Source: Candidatus Altimarinota bacterium (GTDB taxonomy: Bacteria; Patescibacteriota; Gracilibacteria; BD1-5; UBA6164). Taken from it: DNA of 64,000 nucleotides. Position numbers and translations under genes: made by a program. The DNA is taken from assembly GCA_028688895.1 (NCBI GenBank), contig JAQTXG010000001.1:124001-188000 (forward strand). Reading direction: 5' to 3'. Of this stretch, positions 4,311 to 15,940 are shown in pieces. Position 1 is the first letter of the stretch. The number at the start of each line of letters is the position of its first letter. The notes beneath the pieces are model-generated. The model was not told the origin of the DNA. It did no database searches and saw only the letters and a list, made by a program, of their open reading frames with translations.

Positions 4311-6182
4311 ATGGACAAAATGGCGGACAAACATAATAATCAGCGTATATTTGCTTATTTGAGGAAAAGTACAAAGAAAAAATGACAAAGAGATAGTATA
4401 GATAAACAAGAATGATATATAAAAGCCATATGTAAAAGAGCTAGTTTAGATTTTTCTAAAGTAGAATTTTTTATTGATGAATGATATTCTGGTTATAAGT
4501 GAGCAGATTATAGAAATACACAAAGTCAGAAATTGGTAAGAAAAAGAAAGAAATTTCAGGAAATGTTGAATGAAGCAAGAAAAAGTAAATTCCCTTGTAA
4601 AATTCTTGCTTGGAATGTTTCAAGATTTGCTAGAAATGTAAAAGAATGATGAGAGATAGCTAATTTATTATGAGATAATCTTGAAAGAGATATAAAAGTT
4701 GAAGGAGTATATTTTTTAGATGGAAAAAAATGGTCAGTTGGTACTTCAGAAGCAAGTATTATAGCTGATATAAGGGTTGCTCAACAATATAGTGAGGATT
4801 TAAGTATATGAGCTATTCAAAGAAAGATAAATTCATTAAGTAATTGATTTTTAGGAGAGATAAGACCTCCAAAATGATTAATAAAAGATTCTGAAACTAA
4901 AAAGTTAATAGAAAATGAAGCTATGATTTTTATAAGAAAAGCTTTTGAAATGAAAGGGGATTTATTACCAAATACAGAAATTCATAATTATTTAAAAAGA
5001 AATTGAGTAACTGTTTATAAGGATAAAATGTATGAATCTATATTTAGTAATACAGTTTATATATGATACTATACTGATAAAACAACTTGAGAATTATTTA
5101 ATTTAAAATATGTCGGTTGAAAACCTCCTATATCAATGGTTATTTATAATAAAGCTCATAATAATGTAAATAAAATGTCTTGAACATATTGAGAAAATCA
5201 AAAATGAGATTTATTGGTTAATTTACTAAAAACATCAAATTGAAGATCATTTACTGGATATGGTAAAATATATAAGCTATATAATAATACTACTGAAAAA
5301 ATACACATATCTCAGAAAAACATATTTAATGAATTCTGAGATATATTAAAAAAGATTTATTATACATATTATAAGATATACTCATCGATTGAAAAAACAT
5401 CTAATATTTTTTACTTTGAAGATGGTAGGGTAGAGGAAGTTTTTCCTGAATTAAAACTAATGACTTTTGAAGAATTTTGTAAGCCAAATAATCTTTCTGA
5501 TTTTATTGATAATATAAAAGTATCCCAATTATTAAAAGATAAGTGAATTGAAAATATTTTTACAGACGATTCGATAAAAAAATTAGCAAAGATATCAAAC
5601 ATTAATGAAGATGAAGTATTTGAAAAATTAAATTTTTCTTTATTGGAGGCAAGATTATTAGATGAGAATAGAATAAAAGATATTAGTAATGATGAAATAA
5701 AGAAAATAATATTTCATAATTGAAATAATGAATTAAAGAAAAATCAGTTAGATGTAGAAAATAATATAAAAGAATTATTAGAAAAAAAGGAAAAATTAGA
5801 AGTTAAAATTAAATCAGTTAAAATAAATGCCATTTTAAATTGATTTACAAAAGAAGATGTAGAAGAAGCTACTCAAGATATTATTAAAAGTATAAATGAT
5901 ATAGATGAAGAAATAATAAATGCTCAGAAAAATAACATTTCTGATAAAGATTTAGACAAATTTATAGAAGCGTTACAAAATATTTTCGAACACATTAGTA
6001 ATATGCTTCATAAAGGGATTACTGGGGTTTCTGATGAAGATATGCTTCATTTTATAAAATTAACAACTTTCGAACTAATAAAAAGCCCCTCTAAAGGCCT
6101 TGAAATAAAGCTTTTTGAGGGGCTAAAAAAGGTGTTTTATGATATTGGTACTCCCAAAGTGTTAGTGAGGGAGAACTTTTAG
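4311..6182 (+). CDS. Large serine recombinase 1
   Basis: A 623-residue large serine recombinase that cuts and rejoins DNA at att sites. The resolvase-type catalytic domain starts with RIFAYLRKSTKKKGQRDSID, with the nucleophile Ser at about residue 20. The conserved helix ILAWNVSRFARN (about residues 100-111) is present. The recombinase domain follows (about 190-280), then a long C-terminal region with a coiled coil (about 470-545). The place where a zinc beta-ribbon normally lies (around FTGYGKIYKLYNN) has no cysteines. The last codons run into a 13-bp core shared with tRNA-Glu (6145-6157), so the native C-terminus has been replaced at integration of the next element. A hairpin (6081-6124) is embedded in the coding sequence near the end. 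Confidence 0.9.
6081..6124. repeat. Hairpin inside the recombinase 1 coding end
   Basis: AGCCCCTC near 6081 pairs with GAGGGGCT near 6117, with a second inner AAGG/CCTT-type contact, about 20 bases before the att core. The second arm is followed by A-rich, not T-rich, sequence, so on the plus strand it is not a typical terminator. It may be an att-associated arm. Confidence 0.5.
6145..6157. other. attL-like core of element 2
   Basis: The 13-mer TTGGTACTCCCAA is identical to 15864-15876, where it forms the 3' end (acceptor stem plus CCA, antisense) of tRNA-Glu. It marks the left junction of element 2 with recombinase 1 of element 1. The sequence to its right, 6158-6226, is an open frame that matches the missing C-terminus of recombinase 2. 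Confidence 0.75.
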
Positions 6183-6226
6183 AGTTGTTGGATGAGGTTG
6201 ATAAGTTAAAAAATTTTAAAAAATAA
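6158..6226 (+). pseudogene. Detached C-terminal tail of recombinase 2
   Basis: Read from the att core, this segment encodes SVSEGELLELLDEVDKLKNF plus KK and a TAA stop. It has no start of its own and is not in the frame used by recombinase 1. If the two 13-bp cores are joined, recombinase 2 continues in frame from Gln (15874-15876) directly into this segment, giving 502 residues. It is therefore best explained as the native 3' end of the recombinase 2 gene, separated by integration. Confidence 0.7.
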
Positions 6227-6313
6227 ATATAAAAAAATTTATTAAATTAATAAAGTATTAGCATTTTATTAATTTATAATTAATCTATAAATATATTTTT
6301 TAATTATTATCAA

Positions 6314-6553
6314 ATGTTAACACAAGAAGAAATAAAAGAACTTAAATTTTTTTCAGATAAAGTTGTAGATGTTCATGGTTGAGAACATAATGAATATATA
6401 AGAATAAACGAAATTATAATGAATTCAGATTTTTTAAATATAAAAGATAATGACTTTGAAGAATTAAAAATTTTAACAAATAATTTCATAATACCAGAAT
6501 GAGCATGTAGAGCTCAAGAGACATTATTAAAATTATTAAAGAAAATAAATTAA
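6314..6553 (+). CDS. Small hypothetical protein
   Basis: A 79-residue acidic, helical protein (MLTQEEIKELKFFSDK...) with two TGA glycines, which supports coding in this code. It has one Cys and a HGGEHNEY patch (about residues 21-28) that could bind metal, but I do not recognise a family. It is the first gene of element 2, 88 bases after the detached recombinase tail, and is followed by a terminator-like hairpin, so it is probably expressed on its own. Function unknown. Confidence 0.55.
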
Positions 6554-6571
6554 TATAACAAAAATTTTCAT

Positions 6572-6602
6572 ATGAGAGGCCTTATTTATAAGGTTTTTTT
6601 GC
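6572..6602 (+). terminator. Rho-independent terminator
   Basis: CCTTAT and ATAAGG arms around two bases, followed by seven Ts, shortly after the 79-residue gene. Confidence 0.6.
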
Positions 6603-6627
6603 CTTTAATATTTTTTTAATAAACTTT

Positions 6628-6655
6628 TTGCAAAAAAATAATATTATGCTATTAT
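6628..6655 (+). promoter_or_regulatory. Promoter and operator-like palindrome before the AbrB-type gene
   Basis: TTGCAA at 6628-6633, a 16-base spacer, then TATTAT at 6650-6655. Directly downstream, 6662-6682 holds an inverted repeat ATGAAAA...TTTTCAT. The position suggests autoregulation by the AbrB-type protein encoded 26 bases later; this is inferred. Confidence 0.5.
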
Positions 6656-6707
6656 ATAAATATGAAAAATCATACTTTTCATATTTATATGATATAATAA
6701 TAGAAAG

Positions 6708-6935
6708 ATGTTAAAGAAAATAATAAATTTAAAAGTTGTAGGAACTACATCTATTTGAGCAAGGGGACAAATAGTAATACCAAAAGAAGTTAGGGATAAA
6801 TTATGATTAGAGGCTTGAGATAATATGGTTGTTTTAATGAAGGATGATAAATATGTAGGTTTAGTAAAAAATGATAATATATGAGATTTAATGAAGTATA
6901 TAACTTCAGAATGAGCAGTTGTTCCTGGAAAATAA
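6708..6935 (+). CDS. AbrB/SpoVT-type DNA-binding regulator
   Basis: A 75-residue swapped-hairpin DNA-binding protein. The signature GARGQIVIPKEVRDKLGL (about residues 17-34) followed by GDNMVVLMKDDKYVGL is the SpoVT/AbrB domain. Such proteins act as transition-state regulators or antitoxins. No toxin gene follows. Instead the adaptor of an RND pump starts 24 bases downstream, so it is likely the pump's regulator and co-transcribed with it. An inverted repeat upstream (6662-6682) is a candidate binding site. Its length fits the family. DNA-binding role: family knowledge. Pump control: inference. Confidence 0.85.
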
Positions 6936-6959
6936 AATAATATTCTTAATCAAAAAAAA

Positions 6960-8804
6960 ATGCGCAGTAAAACAAGTAATCTTGGAGTAAAAAAAATTAT
7001 TTTAATAATTATTTTAATATTTATATTTACTTCTTGTTCCGAAGAATCAGGGACAAAGGATATTGTATCTTTACAAAATAATGAGTGTGTATCTTGATTT
7101 AAAATTTGAGAGATTGATAAGGCTTCTTTTAAAGTTAAATGAGTAGTAGTAAGTGATGATATAAAAACAGTAAGTTCTCCGATGGCAGGAACTATTGATT
7201 ATTTAGATTGTGAAGCTTGACAAAAGGTTAATGCTAATAGTCTAATAGCTAAAGTGAGTCCTGATTTTAATAATCCAAATATTATAAACTTATCTATTCA
7301 AAAATGAAGTTTAGTTAATCAAAAAACTAATTTAGAATCAGTAAAAATTTCAACAATATCAAGTTTTGATATTCAAATTTCAAGTTTAGAAAATCAAATA
7401 TTAGATTTAAAAGATCAAATTAAAATAATTGAAAAAAATACTTTATTAACTAAACAATCTTCAGGTTTAAGTAAAAATGATTTAGAAAATCAAATCTCAA
7501 GTTTAGAAAAAACATTATCTAGTTTAGAAAATAATTTAGAACTACTTTCAAAATCTAAAGAAGAAGCACTTAAAAAACTTGATATATCAGGTAAAACTTT
7601 AATTACTAATATTAAATCTACTTCTAGTGATAATTTATTAAAAATAGATGAAATTTTTTGAATTACTGATGTAAAGAAAGATTTAAATAATAAATATGAG
7701 GCCTATTTATCAGCAAAAAATTCTAGTTTAAAAAATAAAGTTGATAATAATTTTAGAATATTAAATAATTTATTTAAAAATATTGATACATTAAATAATG
7801 AAGAAATATCATGATTTTTATGAGATTTAATTGAATTAGATAAACTTTCTAGAGATGCTATTAAGGAGTCTATAGAAAATGTTTATTTTACTCAGGTTCA
7901 AATAGATTCTTATTATAGTTTATTTTTGAATTACGGTAATAATATATCAACTTTAAAAGATTCGCTAGATTCTCTAGATAATACAAAAAAATCAACAAAT
8001 ACTAATTATGATACACAAATTTCATCACTTGAAAATCAAATAGCTACATCAATAAATAGTCTAGATAATCTTAAAACAAATAAAATTGATTCAGTTGATG
8101 TTTGACTTGATTTACAATTATCGTCATTAGATAGTCAATTAAAAACTCTAAATTCAAATTTAGATAATTTATTATCAAGTAAATCTAATTTACAAGCTAC
8201 AAAAGAAACACAGATATTAAATTTAAAAAATCAAATATTACAAATTGATCAAAATATTGATTCTTTAAATACCAATCTTTCTGCTAGAAATATCTATGCT
8301 GAAGTATCTTGAATAGTTAAACAAAAGGTTTCTTCTAAATGAAATAATGTATGAATAAATACTCCTTTGTGTCAGATTATACCAAATTCTAATTCAACAA
8401 AAATTAAAATATATTCTCCTATAGAACTAGATATGTGAGATAAATTAACTTTTGATTTTAATTGAATTAATTATGAAATAATTATTGAAAATGTTTTAAT
8501 ATATAAAGATCCTACAACGCAAAATTATGTATATGAATCAAATTATTTAGTAAAAGATACTTTTAAAGATTGAGAGATATTAAGTTTAAGTTTTAGTGAT
8601 ATTAGTATTACTAAAAATAGTGAAATGGAAAACAAAATAATTAAAATTCCAGTTTGATATGTAAAAAATAAAATTAACTGAAATTTTGTAAATATAAATT
8701 CTAATTCTTGAATTATAGAAAAGGAAATAAAACTGTGAGATATAAATTGAAATTTTGTAGAGATTAAATCTGGACTAGAAGAAGTAATAGAAATTTGTAA
8801 ATAA
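6960..8804 (+). CDS. RND pump periplasmic adaptor (HlyD/MFP-like lipoprotein)
   Basis: A 614-residue membrane fusion protein. It starts with a basic stretch, a hydrophobic segment and FIFTSCSEES, a lipobox-like Cys at about residue 26, so it is probably a lipoprotein. A biotinyl-lipoyl-like half (SSPMAGTIDYLDCEAGQKVN, about residues 70-90) leads into a very long coiled-coil region (about 110-450) of repeated LENQI/LDxL heptads. The second lipoyl half (EVSGIVKQKVSSKGNNVGIN) follows, then beta domains. This is the adaptor architecture, with a coiled coil several times longer than in AcrA. It is followed 16 bases later by the RND permease. No outer-membrane channel gene is nearby. Confidence 0.8.
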
Positions 8805-8820
8805 TCATTAATAAAAAAAT

Positions 8821-11800
8821 ATGTTAGTAAATCTTTTAAAACACTTTAAAGCTTTTATAATTATGCTGATGATTTTATCAGTTATAATTTGATTATATGC
8901 ATTTAAGACTTTTCCTAAGGAAGCTAGTCCTGCTATAAATGTACCATTTTTTACTATATCTATAGTTTATCCATGAGCTGATCCAGAAACAATTGAAAAG
9001 CAAGTAATTGAGAAACTTGAAAATAATTTATCAAGTGTAACTCAGGTTAAAGAAGTAAAATCTATATCAGCATATAATGTCTGAGTTATTTCTATAGAAT
9101 TTGATAGAGGTAAGGAAATATGAGAAGCTTATAGTGATTTAAATTCGGCTATTGATAAAACTAGATGAGATTTTCCAGATGATGTAAAAGAACCAGTTTT
9201 AAAAAGAGTAGATATGTCGGATTCTCCTATTTATACTTTTTCAATTACTTGACCAAATTTACCTAGTGTATTATATGATAAGATAAGGAATTTAGAAGAT
9301 AAATTGCAAGCTACTCCTTGAGTTTCAGAAGTTGATGTTATTTGATCATATACTCCTGAAATTAAGATTAAATTTGATTATGAAAAACTTCTTAAAAATA
9401 AAATAAATTTTTCATATGCTATATCTGAAATATCTACATATATAGATAAATTTCCAGCTGATAAAAAAGAGATAGATTCTACTCTATATACTTTTACATT
9501 AAAAACTTACCCAAATGATTTTGATAAAATAGTAGATTTTCTGGATAATTTAACATTGGTTAATCAGTTTTGAAATACTTTATTATTATGAGATGTAGCG
9601 AAGATTACAACTTGACCTTCAGTATATAAAAAAGAATCATATTTAATGAATAATTGAGAAACTTATTCAAGTGTAACTTATTCAATAAAAAAAATTCCTT
9701 GAAGTGATATATTGGAAACTATTGATAGTGTAAAGCAAGTATTAAATAATTATTGATTAAAATTTAGTGATTCAAATTATATTCCTGAACCTAATTTTAT
9801 AGATAAGATATTTTCTTCTAATAAAAATATCTCAGAAAATAATGATTTAAGTGATTTAGAAGTATATGAAATTAATTCACAAAAAGAAAAAATAGATTCA
9901 ACTTATAAAACTTTTCTTTCAAATTTTCGGCAAACAACAGTTATTATCTTTTTAGTTATTTTAATATTTATATGATATAGAGAGTCAATAGGGATAACTT
10001 TAGTATTTCCTTTAGTTTACTTGATATCTTTTATAGCTTTAAAAACTTATTGATATACATTTAATAACATTGTTTCATTTTCTCTTGTGTTAACACTTTG
10101 AATTATGGTTGATAATTTGATTGTAGTTATTGAGTGATTTGAAGAAGGAATGAAAAAATGATTAAAAAAATGGGATGCGATATCATTTTCTATAAAAACA
10201 TATTGGAAACCAATATTATCAGGAAATTTTACCACTATTTCTATGTTTTTACCTATTGGTTTTATGCTTAGTGGTAAAATAGGAGATTTTATGAAATATA
10301 TGCCTACAACTGTTGATGTTGTATTAATAATCTCAATTTTTGTTTCTTTAGTTTTTCTCCCTATAGTTTTAAGTTTTCTTACTTTTAAAATTGATATTAA
10401 AAAGAATAAAAAATGAGAAGATATAGAAGAAAATAAATTATTTTTAAAACTTGAATGATTTTTTAAGAAAATTATTATAAATTATAAAAAAGCTATTTTT
10501 GCTTTTGTATTATTATTTTTTATAACTATATGAATTGCTTCACAATTTTTAAAAGCGGATTTTCTACCTCCTACAGATACAAATAATATTTATGTTAATC
10601 TAAAATTTTCTAGTGATATAACTTTAGAAGAAAATAAAAAAATAGTATCAGATATTTCATATAAAATAGATAATTATTTTAAGGAAAATAAATGATTACT
10701 CGCTTATCAATGAATAAATATCTGAGATTATAAGAGTTTAGATCCTCTTGATAATGTAGTTTATGGGAATTCTTATAATCCTGATTTGGCATATATAGAT
10801 TTAAAACTTACAGATAAAGATTTTGAAAGAAAATATGAGTCTTACTCTATAGTACAAGATTTAAAAAATGTTATAAAAATAGATGATTTTGATACAAAAT
10901 TATTATCTATGGAAATATTTATACAAAAAAGTGGTCCAAGTTGAGGTAAAGATGTAAATTTTTATTTAGTTTGAAATAATCTAGATTCTCTAGTTACTTT
11001 TTACGATAAAATAGAGTCTGAAATAAAGGGAATTGCTTGAACTTACGATTGGTCAAATTCTTTAGAATATACAAATTGAAAATTTGATATCACTTGGGAT
11101 ATAGAAAAATTAAAACAATTTAATATTACAGCTAAAGAATTAGATGTACTTATTGCAAGTGTAGATAATTCAGAATCTTATGATCCAAATTGAATTTTAC
11201 TTAAAAAAATGGATGATTTTTCTAGTGATTTAATAAATGTAAAAGCCTTTACTGAAATATGAGAAAATAATATTTTAGACATAATGGTTCCAGGTAGAGA
11301 TATTTATTTAAAACAATTAATTAAAAATATAGAATTAGTTTGAGAAGTTAAAAGTATAATTCATACTGATTCTAAACTTATATTAAATATTTGAGCTTAT
11401 AAAACAAAAGAAACAAGTCTTTGAAGTATAACTCCAAATATTGATAAAATAGTAGAAAAATATAGTAATGAAATTCCTTGAGTTTCATTAGAATATGCTT
11501 GAGATGTAAAAGATATGCAAAACTCTATGATTGATTTAGTAAAAGCATTTGGGATATGAATTTTACTTATGTTTACAGTTTTAGTTTTACATTTTTGAAA
11601 TTTTAGACAACCATTTTTAGTTTTATCAGTTATACCATTTTTATTTATATGAGCTGTACTTTTACTTACTATCTCATGATTACCATTTAGTTTTCCAGCT
11701 CAACTATGAATGTTTGGTTTGATGTGAGTATGAGTTAATGATGCAATATTATTGATAGAAAGATATAATAATGAAAAGAATCAAAAATATAAAAATAATG

Positions 11801-12018
11801 ATGATTTAATTTTAGATGTTATTAGAGCTAGATTTAAACCAGTATTACTTACAACTCTTACAACAGTTCTATGATTATCAACTCTTGCTATAAAAGATGC
11901 TTTATGGTGAAGTTTAGCTGTTGCATTTATATGATGATTACTTTTAGGTACATTTATTATTTTAGTTTATATCCCAGCAATGTTAAAGTGGTGATTAGTA
12001 AGGAAAGATAAACATTAA
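8821..12018 (+). CDS. RND efflux permease (AcrB/HAE-type)
   Basis: A 1065-residue RND transporter, the usual length for the family. It has the N-terminal transmembrane helix, two large extracytoplasmic loops (about residues 35-330 and 580-880) and two groups of membrane helices. The helix-4 motif reads LGIMVDNLIVVIEG, with the first proton-relay Asp kept and the second position Asn, as in many RND pumps. GLMGVGVNDAILLIERYNN is the matching motif in the second half, and the C-terminal RARFKPVLLTTLTTVLGL is typical. It exports small molecules by proton motive force together with the upstream adaptor. It is an unusually large cargo for such an element. One CGG arginine codon occurs near 9928. 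Confidence 0.92.
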
Positions 12019-12101
12019 AAATCAATTTCTAGCTTTTTAAAATGTTTTGAGTTTTTCTTCTTCTTAAATATTATATATAGAATAATTCGTAATTTTACTA
12101 A

Positions 12102-12899
12102 ATGACTTACACTCAATCAATCTACAACAATACTCGCTATATAGTATTTATACAAACAAAATACCACCAAAATATACTTCCTGTAAATGATGTAAGTCCT
12201 CATTCTTTAGAAGTACTTTTGAAATGTATTTGAAACTACAAATGATATTTATTTAGAAGTATTAGAATATATAGAGATGATATAACTAGAATAAAAGTAT
12301 ATGAGATGAATTTTATAAATTATAAAAAAAATGTATTAGAAAAATCAGAAAATTGGAATAAAGTTTATAAAATTTTTAGTTTAATATCTTGATTTATTGA
12401 TTGGATTTTATATTTGTTTGTTTATAAAAGAGAAGTAAATAAGTTTTGAACCACTATTACAAATATTAAACCAAAATATTTAATAGATAAAACAGAAGCT
12501 TTTCATAATGTTTTGTATTGAAAAAATAAAGAATTTAAAATAAATAATGATTGAAAAGAAATAGTAGAACAAGTAGATTTTCATAATTGAAAATTATATA
12601 TAAATGAAAAGCCTTTTGAGTTGGATGAAAGCTTGAAAGCAAACTATTTTTTAGAATTATTTACAAAATATATTGAAAAGCAAGGAAATACTCATTATAT
12701 AGAACTATATGAATTTATAGATTTATATGAAAAAAACTGTGAAAAAGATTGATATGATTATAATTATCTTAAATTATCAAGTGATAATGTTAAAAAATCT
12801 TATATAAAAACTATCAATGATAATATTTTGAAGAAATATAATAAAGAAATTTTAGAGATAAGTAAAAACTTTATATGAATAATACAGGACTTAAATTAA
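12102..12899 (+). CDS. Hypothetical protein of element 2
   Basis: A 265-residue basic, Tyr/Lys-rich protein, MTYTQSIYNNTRYIVFIQTK at the start. One hydrophobic stretch (LISGFIDWILYLFVYK, about residues 105-120) could be a membrane segment or a buried helix. No family is recognised. It sits between the RND pump and the origin-like structure before the Rep gene, on the same strand, and is followed by two hairpins that look like terminators. By position it could take part in replication or transfer of the element. This is only context. Confidence 0.6.
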
Positions 12900-12925
12900 A
12901 TTTTAAATAATCAAAAAAGAGAAAC

Positions 12926-13021
12926 AAAAGAGATAATCTATCTCTTTTATATTTTTGCTATTTTAAGGCATATATACACAATCACACTCAGACAGTTTAT
13001 CTGTCTAAGTGTGATTTTTTT
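12926..13021 (+). terminator. Two successive terminator-like hairpins
   Basis: AAAAGAGATA/TATCTCTTTT at 12926-12948, then a strong stem at 12981-13015 (ATCACACTCAGACAG with CTGTCTAAGTGTGAT, one unpaired base) followed by Ts. They separate the 265-residue gene from the Rep region. Confidence 0.75.
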
Positions 13022-13048
13022 AAAGCTTTAATCACTCTTAAATATTAA

Positions 13049-13127
13049 AAAGACTCTGACATCAATAATTGTCAGAGCAGTTAACTATAAATTAGTACTA
13101 CTTTTATATTAGTACTCGCGAGTCTTT
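13049..13127. other. Three-way-junction structure before rep: candidate replication origin
   Basis: An outer stem AAAGACT (13049-13055) with AGTCTTT (13121-13127) encloses two hairpins: CTCTGAC/GTCAGAG (13054-13060 with 13071-13077) and AGTACT/AGTACT (13094-13099 with 13111-13116, the latter part of a direct repeat ATTAGTACT). It lies 12 bases before the start of a Rep_trans-like initiator, where rolling-circle plasmids carry their double-strand origin. The nick site cannot be assigned by eye. Confidence 0.5.
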
Positions 13128-13138
13128 ACATTTTAATA

Positions 13139-14185
13139 ATGGAAAATAATGAAATTTTAAATATTAAGGATAATATTATCCACTTTTGATTAGATCATCT
13201 CGAAATATTTTGAACTTTTAATCATGAAAAAGAATTATTTGAAAAATTAGATTTTGATAATTCTAACTATTGAGAACTTGAAGATTATTCATTTACAAAA
13301 AATGAAGTACCAAAATATAAATACAAAATTATATTTACTAAAGATAATTATTCTTTATTTGCATATTATAAATGAGATATTGATTCTAATAGTATTATAA
13401 AATCCAAAGATAAAATAGTTATTTATTCAACAGCATTTAAAGTATTAAATTATGAAAAAATTGAATATTTTCTTAATTGATACTTTAGTTTACAAAAATG
13501 TTTTAGATTTGATATTTGTATTGATATAAATATTGATATAAACATTATTTTAAACGAGTTTACAATACTTAAAACTTGAAAAGAATATAAGAAGTCGTGA
13601 GAGATAGAAACTCGTTATATTTGAGATTCAAATAAGTATAGGAATAAAAGGCAAGTAATAAGAGTTTATAATAAAATTCTTGATATAGTTGAGAAACATA
13701 AACACAAACTTTATAAAAAATATTTAGTAGAGGATTTTGTAACAAGAGTAGAACTTGAAATCCGTTCAGAACTTGCAAAGAATTTACCAATACAAGATAT
13801 TTTTGATAATGAAAAATTAACTTGTATTTTTAGAAATTATCTAAAAAAACACACTAAAATATTTGATAATGAAAATGCTAAAAATATTAGCCTATATCAA
13901 AAACCACTAAAAAAAATTACAGCAGAACAGTATCAAAGTACATATTACAGAAACCAAAGAAGAAAAATTTTTGTATGACATGCAAAATCTGTATATGAAA
14001 TGTGATATTGTCCAGTAAGAGTATTATTATGAGAATGATTAATAAAAGATGATACTAAAAAATTCTTAGATGTAGATATTGTTGATAGAATTGCAGAAAT
14101 TGAAACAATTTTAAAAAGAGAGGAGTTTTATAAACGGCAAAAGATACAAGAAAGAAGGTTTTCTAATTATAAAAAAAATGATTAG
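13139..14185 (+). CDS. Rep_trans-like rolling-circle replication initiator
   Basis: A 348-residue protein. The central ETRYIGDSNKYRNKRQVIRV followed by YNK (about residues 157-179) and VEDFVTRVELEIRSELAKN (about 200-218) match the pattern of Rep_trans initiators of Gram-positive plasmids and integrative elements (YIGS...R.YDK...RvElelr). The conserved Tyr in that region would be the nicking residue. The C-terminal third is basic. The upstream 100 bases form an origin-like structure, and the gene overlaps the next small gene by 8 bases. It probably lets the excised element replicate. Rare CGG codons occur. Family assignment rests on motif pattern, not a search. Confidence 0.7.
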
Positions 14186-14339
14186 AGAAAGAATAGAAAT
14201 AGATTTAAAACCTCATGAAAAATCTATAAAAAAACAATATCCTTTTTTAAATGATACAGAGGTAAAAGATTTAGCTTTTGAATTATATAAACTCCTAGAA
14301 AATCGGTATCATTTAGAAGTAGAAAGTATAGAAAATTAA
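14178..14339 (+). CDS. Small hypothetical protein overlapping rep
   Basis: A 53-residue protein (MIRERIEIDLKPHEKSIKKQ at the start) whose ATG overlaps the end of the rep gene by 8 bases, typical of translational coupling. Acidic and helical, no TGA codon. Its size and position, between Rep and the integrase, suggest an accessory or copy-control role. No family is recognised. Confidence 0.55.
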   Translation: MIRERIEIDLKPHEKSIKKQYPFLNDTEVKDLAFELYKLLENRYHLEVESIEN

Positions 14340-14346
14340 CATTATT

Positions 14347-14405
14347 TTAACAAGAAATATATTAAAAGTCTAGATAAAAATTAGAAACTCTTTATACTTC
14401 TTGTT
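14347..14405. repeat. Inverted repeat upstream of recombinase 2
   Basis: TTAACAAGAA near 14347 and TTCTTGTTAA near 14396, a perfect 10-bp pair about 40 bases apart, ending about 30 bases before the recombinase start. It may be an operator or a terminator stem of the rep operon; no long T-run follows. Confidence 0.5.
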
Positions 14406-14436
14406 AAGATTTATTATATAAAATCATAAATTAATA

Positions 14437-15921
14437 ATGAAAACAATAATATATTATAGAAAATCAACTGATAGAGATGATAAACAAGCTAATTCACTTG
14501 AACATCAATTAACAAATTGTAGAAAAACAGCAGATTTTAGGGACTTGCAAATATTTAAGGAAATAGGAGAAAGTAAGTCAGCAAAAACAGAATTTACAAG
14601 GGATTGATTTAATAAACTTATTAGATTGTGTAAAACTTGAAAGATAGATTATATAATTATTGATGAGCCAAAGAGATTATCAAGGAATAATATTGATACA
14701 TCTAGAATTATTGATTTGTTAGATAAAAAACAAATTAAATGAATACTTGCAACATCAAGAGAATATAATTCAGATAATTCAAGAGATAAATTTCTTTTAC
14801 AATTAGATTTATCATTATCAAAAATGGATAATGAGGATAGAGCAAAAGATATAAAAGATAAAATGATTACAGCTTTTAAAAGAGGGCAATGGATGTGAAA
14901 AGCACCTATTTGATACAAAAATATTACTATCAAAAAAGGACACAAAGATATAATTATAGATGAAAATACAGCACCATATATTAAAAAAGCTTTTGAATTA
15001 AGAATAGCTTGAAATTCATATACTAAGATAAGAGATTATTTATACGACAGTTGAATTAAATCAAGTGTAGGAAGTAAAATATGAGTTGAACAAATGAAAA
15101 GAATAATATCAAGGAAGTTTTATATGTGAATAATGGAGTGGGGAAATATAGAAGTAAAATGAAAATATAAACCATTAATTACAAAACTAGATTATTTGAA
15201 AGCAAATGATATATCAAAACCGGTCATACATACATATAAAAACAAAGTATATTCTTTGGCTGGAATTGTTAAAGATATTGATAAAATGAGTATGACAGGA
15301 TATACAAAAAAAGATATTGTATATTATCACAATTGAAGAAACAGTAAATATATAATAAACATTAGTGAAAAATTAGTTTTAAGTAAGTTTTTAGAAAAGT
15401 TACAAGATTTTATTTTGGAAAATTGATTAAAAAAAATTACAGTACCAATGCTTAAAGATTTATATGATAATGCTATAAAAAAATCTGAATGAGATAATGA
15501 AAAGATTAAGTCTAAAATAAAACATTTAGAACTAAGAAAAAACTCTTTGGTTGATAGTTTTTTAGATTGAGATATTGAAAAAAGTTTATATAAAAGTAAA
15601 TTGTTTGATATAGAATTGAAAGTTGAAGAATGTAATAAAAAACTACAACCTACTTCAAAGATAAATATAAAAAAGCTAGAAAAAATAAAATATGGGGGCG
15701 AACTCTTTGTAAACCTTTATTGAAGCTATCCTAAAGTTGAATTAAAAGAAAAGATTAATATTTTAAAATCATTCGGGAGCGAACTTTTAATAGACACTAA
15801 AAAAGAGCTACAGTTAGCTGAAAATCGCTTACTGGAACTCTTGAAAAAAGTATGTTTTCATATTTGGTACTCCCAACGAGACTCGAACTCGTGTATCCAC
15901 CGTGAGAGGGTGGTGTCCTAG
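14437..15921 (+). CDS. Large serine recombinase 2 (integrase of element 2), C-terminus altered by integration
   Basis: A 494-residue large serine recombinase in its present form. The catalytic start is IIYYRKSTDRDDKQANSLEH, with Ser at about residue 10. IIIDEPKRLSRNNID (about 70-84) is the conserved helix region, and a recombinase domain follows (about 145-240). The zinc-ribbon equivalent (SLAGIVKDIDKMSMTGYTKK) lacks cysteines. A coiled coil precedes the end. The frame runs through the 13-bp att core and antisense across tRNA-Glu to TAG 15919-15921, so the last 15 residues are encoded by tRNA sequence. Excision would replace them with the tail at 6158-6226. Confidence 0.9.
15864..15876. other. 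attR-like core in tRNA-Glu
   Basis: TTGGTACTCCCAA, identical to 6145-6157. On the minus strand it is the 3' end of tRNA-Glu including CCA. It marks the right junction of element 2 and the bacterial attachment site. Confidence 0.75.
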
Positions 15922-15940
15922 GCCACTAGACGATGGGAGC
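15865..15940 (-). tRNA. tRNA-Glu (CTC anticodon)
   Basis: A 76-base cloverleaf on the minus strand. The acceptor stem GCTCCCA pairs with TGGGAGT (one G-T type pair), the anticodon stem-loop is CCACC-CTCTCAC-GGTGG with anticodon CTC, the T-arm reads ACGAGTTCGAGTCTCGT, and CCA is encoded. It decodes GAG. It serves as the integration target of element 2 and probably also of element 1, and its antisense strand forms the present end of recombinase 2. Confidence 0.95.

Follow-up and report, generated by a model that had tools for sequence, protein, structure and literature searches.

What would become of an integrase if the reaction that it catalyses replaced the end of its own gene? The question is raised by a tRNA-Glu locus in a Gracilibacteria-type genome of 1.8 Mb that reads TGA as glycine (code 25). 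In the window analysed here, a contiguous stretch of 64,000 nucleotides, the gene of a large serine integrase, recombinase 2, runs into the antisense strand of that tRNA gene (Table 1). With 15 in-frame TGA codons, recombinase 2 requires code 25, and its near named relatives are mostly from Candidatus Gracilibacteria. The protein has a catalytic resolvase domain (PF00239, 3e-21) followed by a Recombinase domain (PF07508, 2e-14); the nucleophile region (Y-x-R-K-S) and the arginines are present, with R8, S10, R80 and R83 invariant among 18 homologues. Its structural model shows long helices at residues 336-402, the model of its homologue L141 matches the SPbeta integrase, and a Pfam zinc-ribbon match is absent. 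Since the frame crosses the 3' end of tRNA-Glu, the last 18 residues (WYSQ...VVS), 14 of them beyond the att core, are read from the antisense of the tRNA; the initial annotation had recognised this origin, though its count of 15 residues needs correcting.

Table 1. Coordinates of the features discussed in the text (positions within the window).
Feature	Position	Strand	Basis or remark
Recombinase 1, serine recombinase of the neighbouring element 1	4311..6182	+	PF00239
Terminator-like hairpin inside the 3' codons of recombinase 1	6084..6124	-	Hairpin search
Left-end att core TTGGTACTCCCAA of element 2, where element 1 adjoins in tandem	6145..6157	+	Exact repeat of 15864-15876
Codons for the native tail SVSEGELLELLDEVDKLKNFKK with the stop codon; continue recombinase 2 in the circular form	6158..6226	+	In-frame junction; homologous tails
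GAACTTTT motif, probable P' arm of attP	6173..6180	+	Kept close to the core at the left ends of several elements; reading frame differs
Cargo RND efflux adaptor	6960-8804	+	PF13437 / PF00873 (adaptor and permease pair), NCBIfam
Cargo RND efflux permease	8821-12018	+	PF13437 / PF00873 (adaptor and permease pair), NCBIfam
265-aa protein, no known family	12102..12899	+	Also in the related G070 element
348-aa protein, no known family	13139..14185	+	Homologues near these integrases
Recombinase 2, large serine integrase, integrated form, 494 aa, code 25	14437..15921	+	PF00239 and PF07508; last codons antisense to the tRNA
Terminator-like hairpin for the tRNA, inside the C-terminal codons of recombinase 2, followed by a U-rich run	15803..15842	-	Stronger than all 120 synonymous recodings
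att core TTGGTACTCCCAA, tRNA side, attR of element 2	15864..15876	+	Exact repeat of 6145-6157
tRNA-Glu(CTC), target (attB) gene	15865..15940	-	ARAGORN

The 13-bp core has just two exact copies in the whole 1.8-Mb genome (at 6145 and 15864), and a reversed control pattern has no match in it. Between them lies what is probably an integrative element of about 9.7 kb (6145-15864), designated element 2. The earlier reading of the 6145 site as a chromosomal attL had to be abandoned: the 3' end of recombinase 1 forms its left half, which makes the site a junction between two tandem elements, and a third, slightly divergent att copy (TTTGGTACTCCCA) lies on the chromosome side, about 3.3 kb left of the window (G000:C16:120661), where it adjoins a hairpin with T-runs. 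Recombinase 1 crosses the core too, in another frame that gives GTP in place of WYS. The region is best read as a tandem array in the order att, element 1 (recombinase 1), att, element 2 (recombinase 2) and tRNA-Glu, and comparable tandems are found in G017, G032, G025 and G070. On the right side of the C16:120661 site, an RTF-type tail is encoded in the WYS frame, a mismatch with the neighbouring recombinase 1, which uses the GTP frame. In the single-contig genome G021, the same att left end occurs three times on C1 (317879, 1091754 and 1093475), one copy being far from the tRNA-Glu locus, which suggests past insertions or scars.

Joining the two cores keeps the frame of recombinase 2 open into the codons that follow the 6145 site, as the initial annotation had proposed. 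The resulting protein would have 502 residues and end in HIWYSQ-SVSEGELLELLDEVDKLKNFKK (stop at 6224-6226), as against the 494 residues and HIWYSQ-RDSNSCIHRERVVS end of the integrated form. Tails of the same kind occur in homologues, both naturally, in three uninterrupted genes with a native tail at attP-like junctions (L139, L141 and L142; the tail of L141 is ...SFGTPEKFDIRTFKKELSRLNIEDLREFHKFIKKLT), and in frame at the junctions of 13 elements whose far att copy could be found and whose circle was rebuilt. Homologous elements repeat a similar tail, in frame and equally far from the core, which argues against a one-off open frame. Moreover, in 10 of the 13 rebuilt junctions no open frame is longer than that of the integrase (p=0.0016), the other three including recombinase 1 with its own att; a chance open frame is ruled out by the homologues together with this frame test. 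The three natural cases may themselves be tandem or chimeric junctions, and L139 has a second P' copy. Taken together, the naturally tailed homologues, the 13 rebuilt junctions and the agreeing predicted structures leave little doubt that the C-terminus would be exchanged upon integration.

The structural predictions were obtained with AlphaFold, the tail structure being taken from the natural tailed homologue L141. There, the tail forms two helices (491-499 and 503-516; block pLDDT 81-88), and the tRNA-encoded end of recombinase 2 in its integrated form has pLDDT values of 42 and 36. The underlying alignments are shallow (pTM ~0.4), and the models do not fix the position of the tail relative to the body. 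When the L141 model is aligned structurally with the SPbeta integrase, the match covers residues 1-476 and ends before the core-encoded part, so the exchange should leave the known fold for catalysis and DNA binding in place.

The same layout recurs widely. Among the homologue matches in related genomes, 30 of 43 read into the antisense of a tRNA gene, the genes entered being those for Glu (CTC/TTC), Arg (GCG/CCT), Cys (GCA), Lys (TTT/CTT), Trp (CCA) and Asn (GTT). Homologues from standard-code Patescibacteria have the same arrangement at Gln, Leu, Ala and Ser tRNAs; the distant standard-code homologues L153-L172 (from Nomurabacteria, Zambryskibacteria, Woesebacteria and others) stop within a tRNA gene or next to one, except that L156 and L157 finish with an RTF-containing tail. 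Across homologues, the integrated integrase genes are mostly full length and intact, and they bear many unrelated tRNA-encoded tails. One integrase type is found with two different ends, a tRNA-Glu scar in G029 and a tailed gene in G070, the two diverging at the core; the tail of the G070 gene is that of the following element in a tandem. That tandem (G070:C1:37094-54647; L086, L130) comprises two elements with different serine integrases; integrase 1 continues into the tail of the second element without leaving its frame, a natural tail transplant. A single-protein search with the integrase gave no matches among viral contigs, and an alignment search gave four distant loci; of the viral loci, L177 ends at a WWS core, without a tRNA, and L176 continues into the antisense of rplK. 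The plasmid and phage collections yielded distant recombinases only.

The lengths and sequences of the tails vary widely. Near relatives of the recombinase 2 tail, read in the same frame, are found in other genera (G022, VSREELLKLLDEVEKLDL; G062, ISDEELLDLLDEL; G070, LDYEEFLRLVEEYERW; G021, NFYRLLEEI; G015, IEDNELIELLEEV), and tails in the WYS and GTP frames align nearly without gaps from the core onwards, with hydrophobic positions in common. Overlapping the tail is the GAACTTTT motif, which lies about 25-27 nt from the TGG at several element left ends and is translated as ELL in some elements and as RTF in others; spacing and frame covary, the spacing being 33 where the frame is WYS and 34 where it is GTP, and each combination yields RTF. 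We interpret this motif as probably the P' arm of attP, and its being read in different frames indicates that part of the conservation of the tail lies at the DNA level. As the sole cause, conservation of a DNA motif is ruled out, although a partial role is kept: past the motif, three independent pairs of related tails have 24 of their 39 differences at third codon positions (p=0.0003). Hence, both layers of selection, on protein and on DNA, seem to be present.

These observations bear on the alternative that survives best, namely that the exchange is real but functionally neutral, with attP placed at the gene end for compactness, the sequence right of the core kept mainly as the P' site and any tail tolerated. 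Such neutrality would sit well with a motif kept in different reading frames, with the many unrelated tRNA-encoded tails of integrated forms and with a known fold that is complete before the core. It does not sit well with the third-position bias past the motif, the hydrophobic pattern common to both core frames and the confident helical prediction, and we regard it as a serious possibility, albeit a minority one.

A further constraint acts on the sequence left of the core. Transcription of the tRNA enters the integrase gene from the opposite side, and in most family members the reverse complement of the C-terminal codons contains a hairpin with a U-rich run behind it, typically 20-63 nt past the 3' end of the tRNA. 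When each gene was redrawn synonymously 120 times, no recoding was as stable in 17 of 29 genes, and at most five were in 23 of them. By this synonymous-recoding test, the antisense hairpin is very probably real, beyond what the protein needs, and we infer that it terminates the tRNA transcripts. Other hairpins at the left flanks of several att sites are likely to be the displaced original tRNA terminators. The 3' end of the integrase gene would therefore serve together as protein code, attP and probably tRNA terminator, and such a hidden hairpin hints at how an element could insert at a tRNA 3' end and still leave tRNA expression unharmed.

The hairpin could also be taken to mean that the overlap is driven by the tRNA alone, the integrase 3' end restoring the tRNA 3' end and supplying a terminator, with the altered protein end a tolerated side effect. 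The 23 of 29 genes whose antisense hairpin beats nearly all synonymous recodings agree with this, as do the hairpins on left flanks, where displaced original terminators would sit. However, this explanation accounts for the sequence left of the core and not for the protein-level conservation of the tail to its right; as an account of the whole it is unlikely, and it is compatible with, rather than exclusive of, the interpretation that we prefer.

That preferred interpretation, to which we assign a probability of roughly 0.8, is an element with attP inside its integrase gene, an exchanged and accessory tail and an antisense terminator. The serine integrase would target the 3' end of a tRNA gene, with attP nested in the 3' end of its own gene. 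In the circle, it would end in the conserved helical tail, for which the P' side of attP codes; recombination at the tRNA gene would carry this side off to the element's far end, and the integrated gene would then end in tRNA-antisense residues. On the other strand, its 3' codons would provide the tRNA with a new terminator, the original one being pushed away. The integrated form would still be functional, for excision or at a low level, since the known fold is complete without the tail, and the mostly intact state of integrated integrases fits a form that is still used. The tail would be an accessory piece favouring attP x attB by aiding integration or the synapse; without it, the enzyme would be in a form suited to excision or rest. 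For this part of the proposal, a working integrated form and an accessory tail, with the state of the DNA setting the form of the enzyme, we would claim slightly less than even odds, and the earlier suggestion that the tail swap may act as a switch is plausible. More speculative, and in our view rather doubtful in its full extent, is a Patescibacteria-wide family in which the tRNA target would be a state sensor: the helical tail would make the enzyme integration-competent and the tRNA-encoded end, produced only once insertion has taken place, would render it excision-biased or quiescent, so that the reaction itself would write direction into the integrase gene; one gene stretch would combine code, attP and antisense tRNA terminator, and a tandem upstream integrase could take the downstream tail. 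Serine integrases are widely used genome-engineering tools, and their direction is normally set by a separate factor. A natural enzyme with a C-terminus exchanged by its own reaction would be a new, testable way of setting direction.

The closest precedent is that of the Myxococcus phage Mx8, whose integrase is a tyrosine integrase. Its integrase is treated with the tyrosine family by Islander (PMC4383910), and a review (PMC6070905; Tojo 1996 and Magrini 1999 cited there) describes attP within int, with integration producing a new int 3' end and a measured alteration of specificity, and terms this exchange a molecular switch. An attP core inside the coding sequence and a new integrase 3' end are common to both systems; recombinase 2 differs in being a serine recombinase, in showing the arrangement as a family trait and in its putative antisense terminator. 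Mycobacteriophage integration-dependent immunity, as outlined in PMC9934374 (citing Broussard 2013), likewise places attP inside a gene whose 3' end is removed by integration, but there it is the repressor gene that loses its end, a degradation tag, whereas here it is the integrase gene, and the end lost is a helical tail. That the tail might, by the same logic, be a degradation tag whose loss stabilises the integrase is very improbable and was rejected, as the tail ends are unrelated (NFKK, LDL, DEL, ERW, LKI, KLT), share no common terminal residues and include nothing ssrA-like.

With the serine integrase of phiRSM, recombinase 2 shares the 3' end of a tRNA gene (tRNA-Ser in phiRSM) as target, the reverse orientation and a 13-bp core, but the attP of phiRSM lies outside its integrase gene, between orf14 and orf15 (PMC3816273; PMC4471427), and that of recombinase 2 inside. 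The Mycobacterium AICEs also have serine recombinases at a tRNA gene, tRNA-Leu, and their description in the corresponding part of a 2011 survey, which calls such targeting rare, makes no mention of overlap between att and the integrase gene (PMC3218068). In solved structures, the SPbeta integrase (PDB 9dxh, 9dxd, 9y66) has the closest fold, the tail and the core-encoded linker lying outside the aligned residues 1-476. An SSV-type split integrase, whose gene is disrupted by integration, is not matched, as the genes here are mostly full length and keep the known fold. The combination of attP within a serine integrase gene, a tRNA target and an antisense terminator was not found in a collection limited to open-licence papers. 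Islander states that serine integrases are not known to target tRNA genes (PMC4383910), and the 2011 survey has such cases as rare (PMC3218068); against this stands a broad family at tRNA genes of many isotypes and in many lineages.

Two of the natural tailed homologues come from contigs labelled as proteobacterial: L139 (NVWN01000012.1, 8936-12893), on a contig labelled Arcobacter, has an integrase with many in-frame TGA codons and flanking genes that mostly do not need TGA, and the integrase of L142 (NZ_MIEQ01000078.1, 9995-11542), on a contig labelled Motiliproteus, also has many. They may reflect mis-binning, a chimera or a Gracilibacteria element in a proteobacterium. As for the other genes of element 2, an AbrB/MazE-like protein lies among the cargo within 6708-12018. 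The 348-aa protein was guessed from its sequence to be a rolling-circle initiator, which searches of Pfam, PHROGs, NCBIfam and PDB do not support, a convincing match being absent from all four. Its homologues lie near integrases in G017, G018, G025, G032, G006, G062 and G070, and its presence near so many of them points to a common element type.
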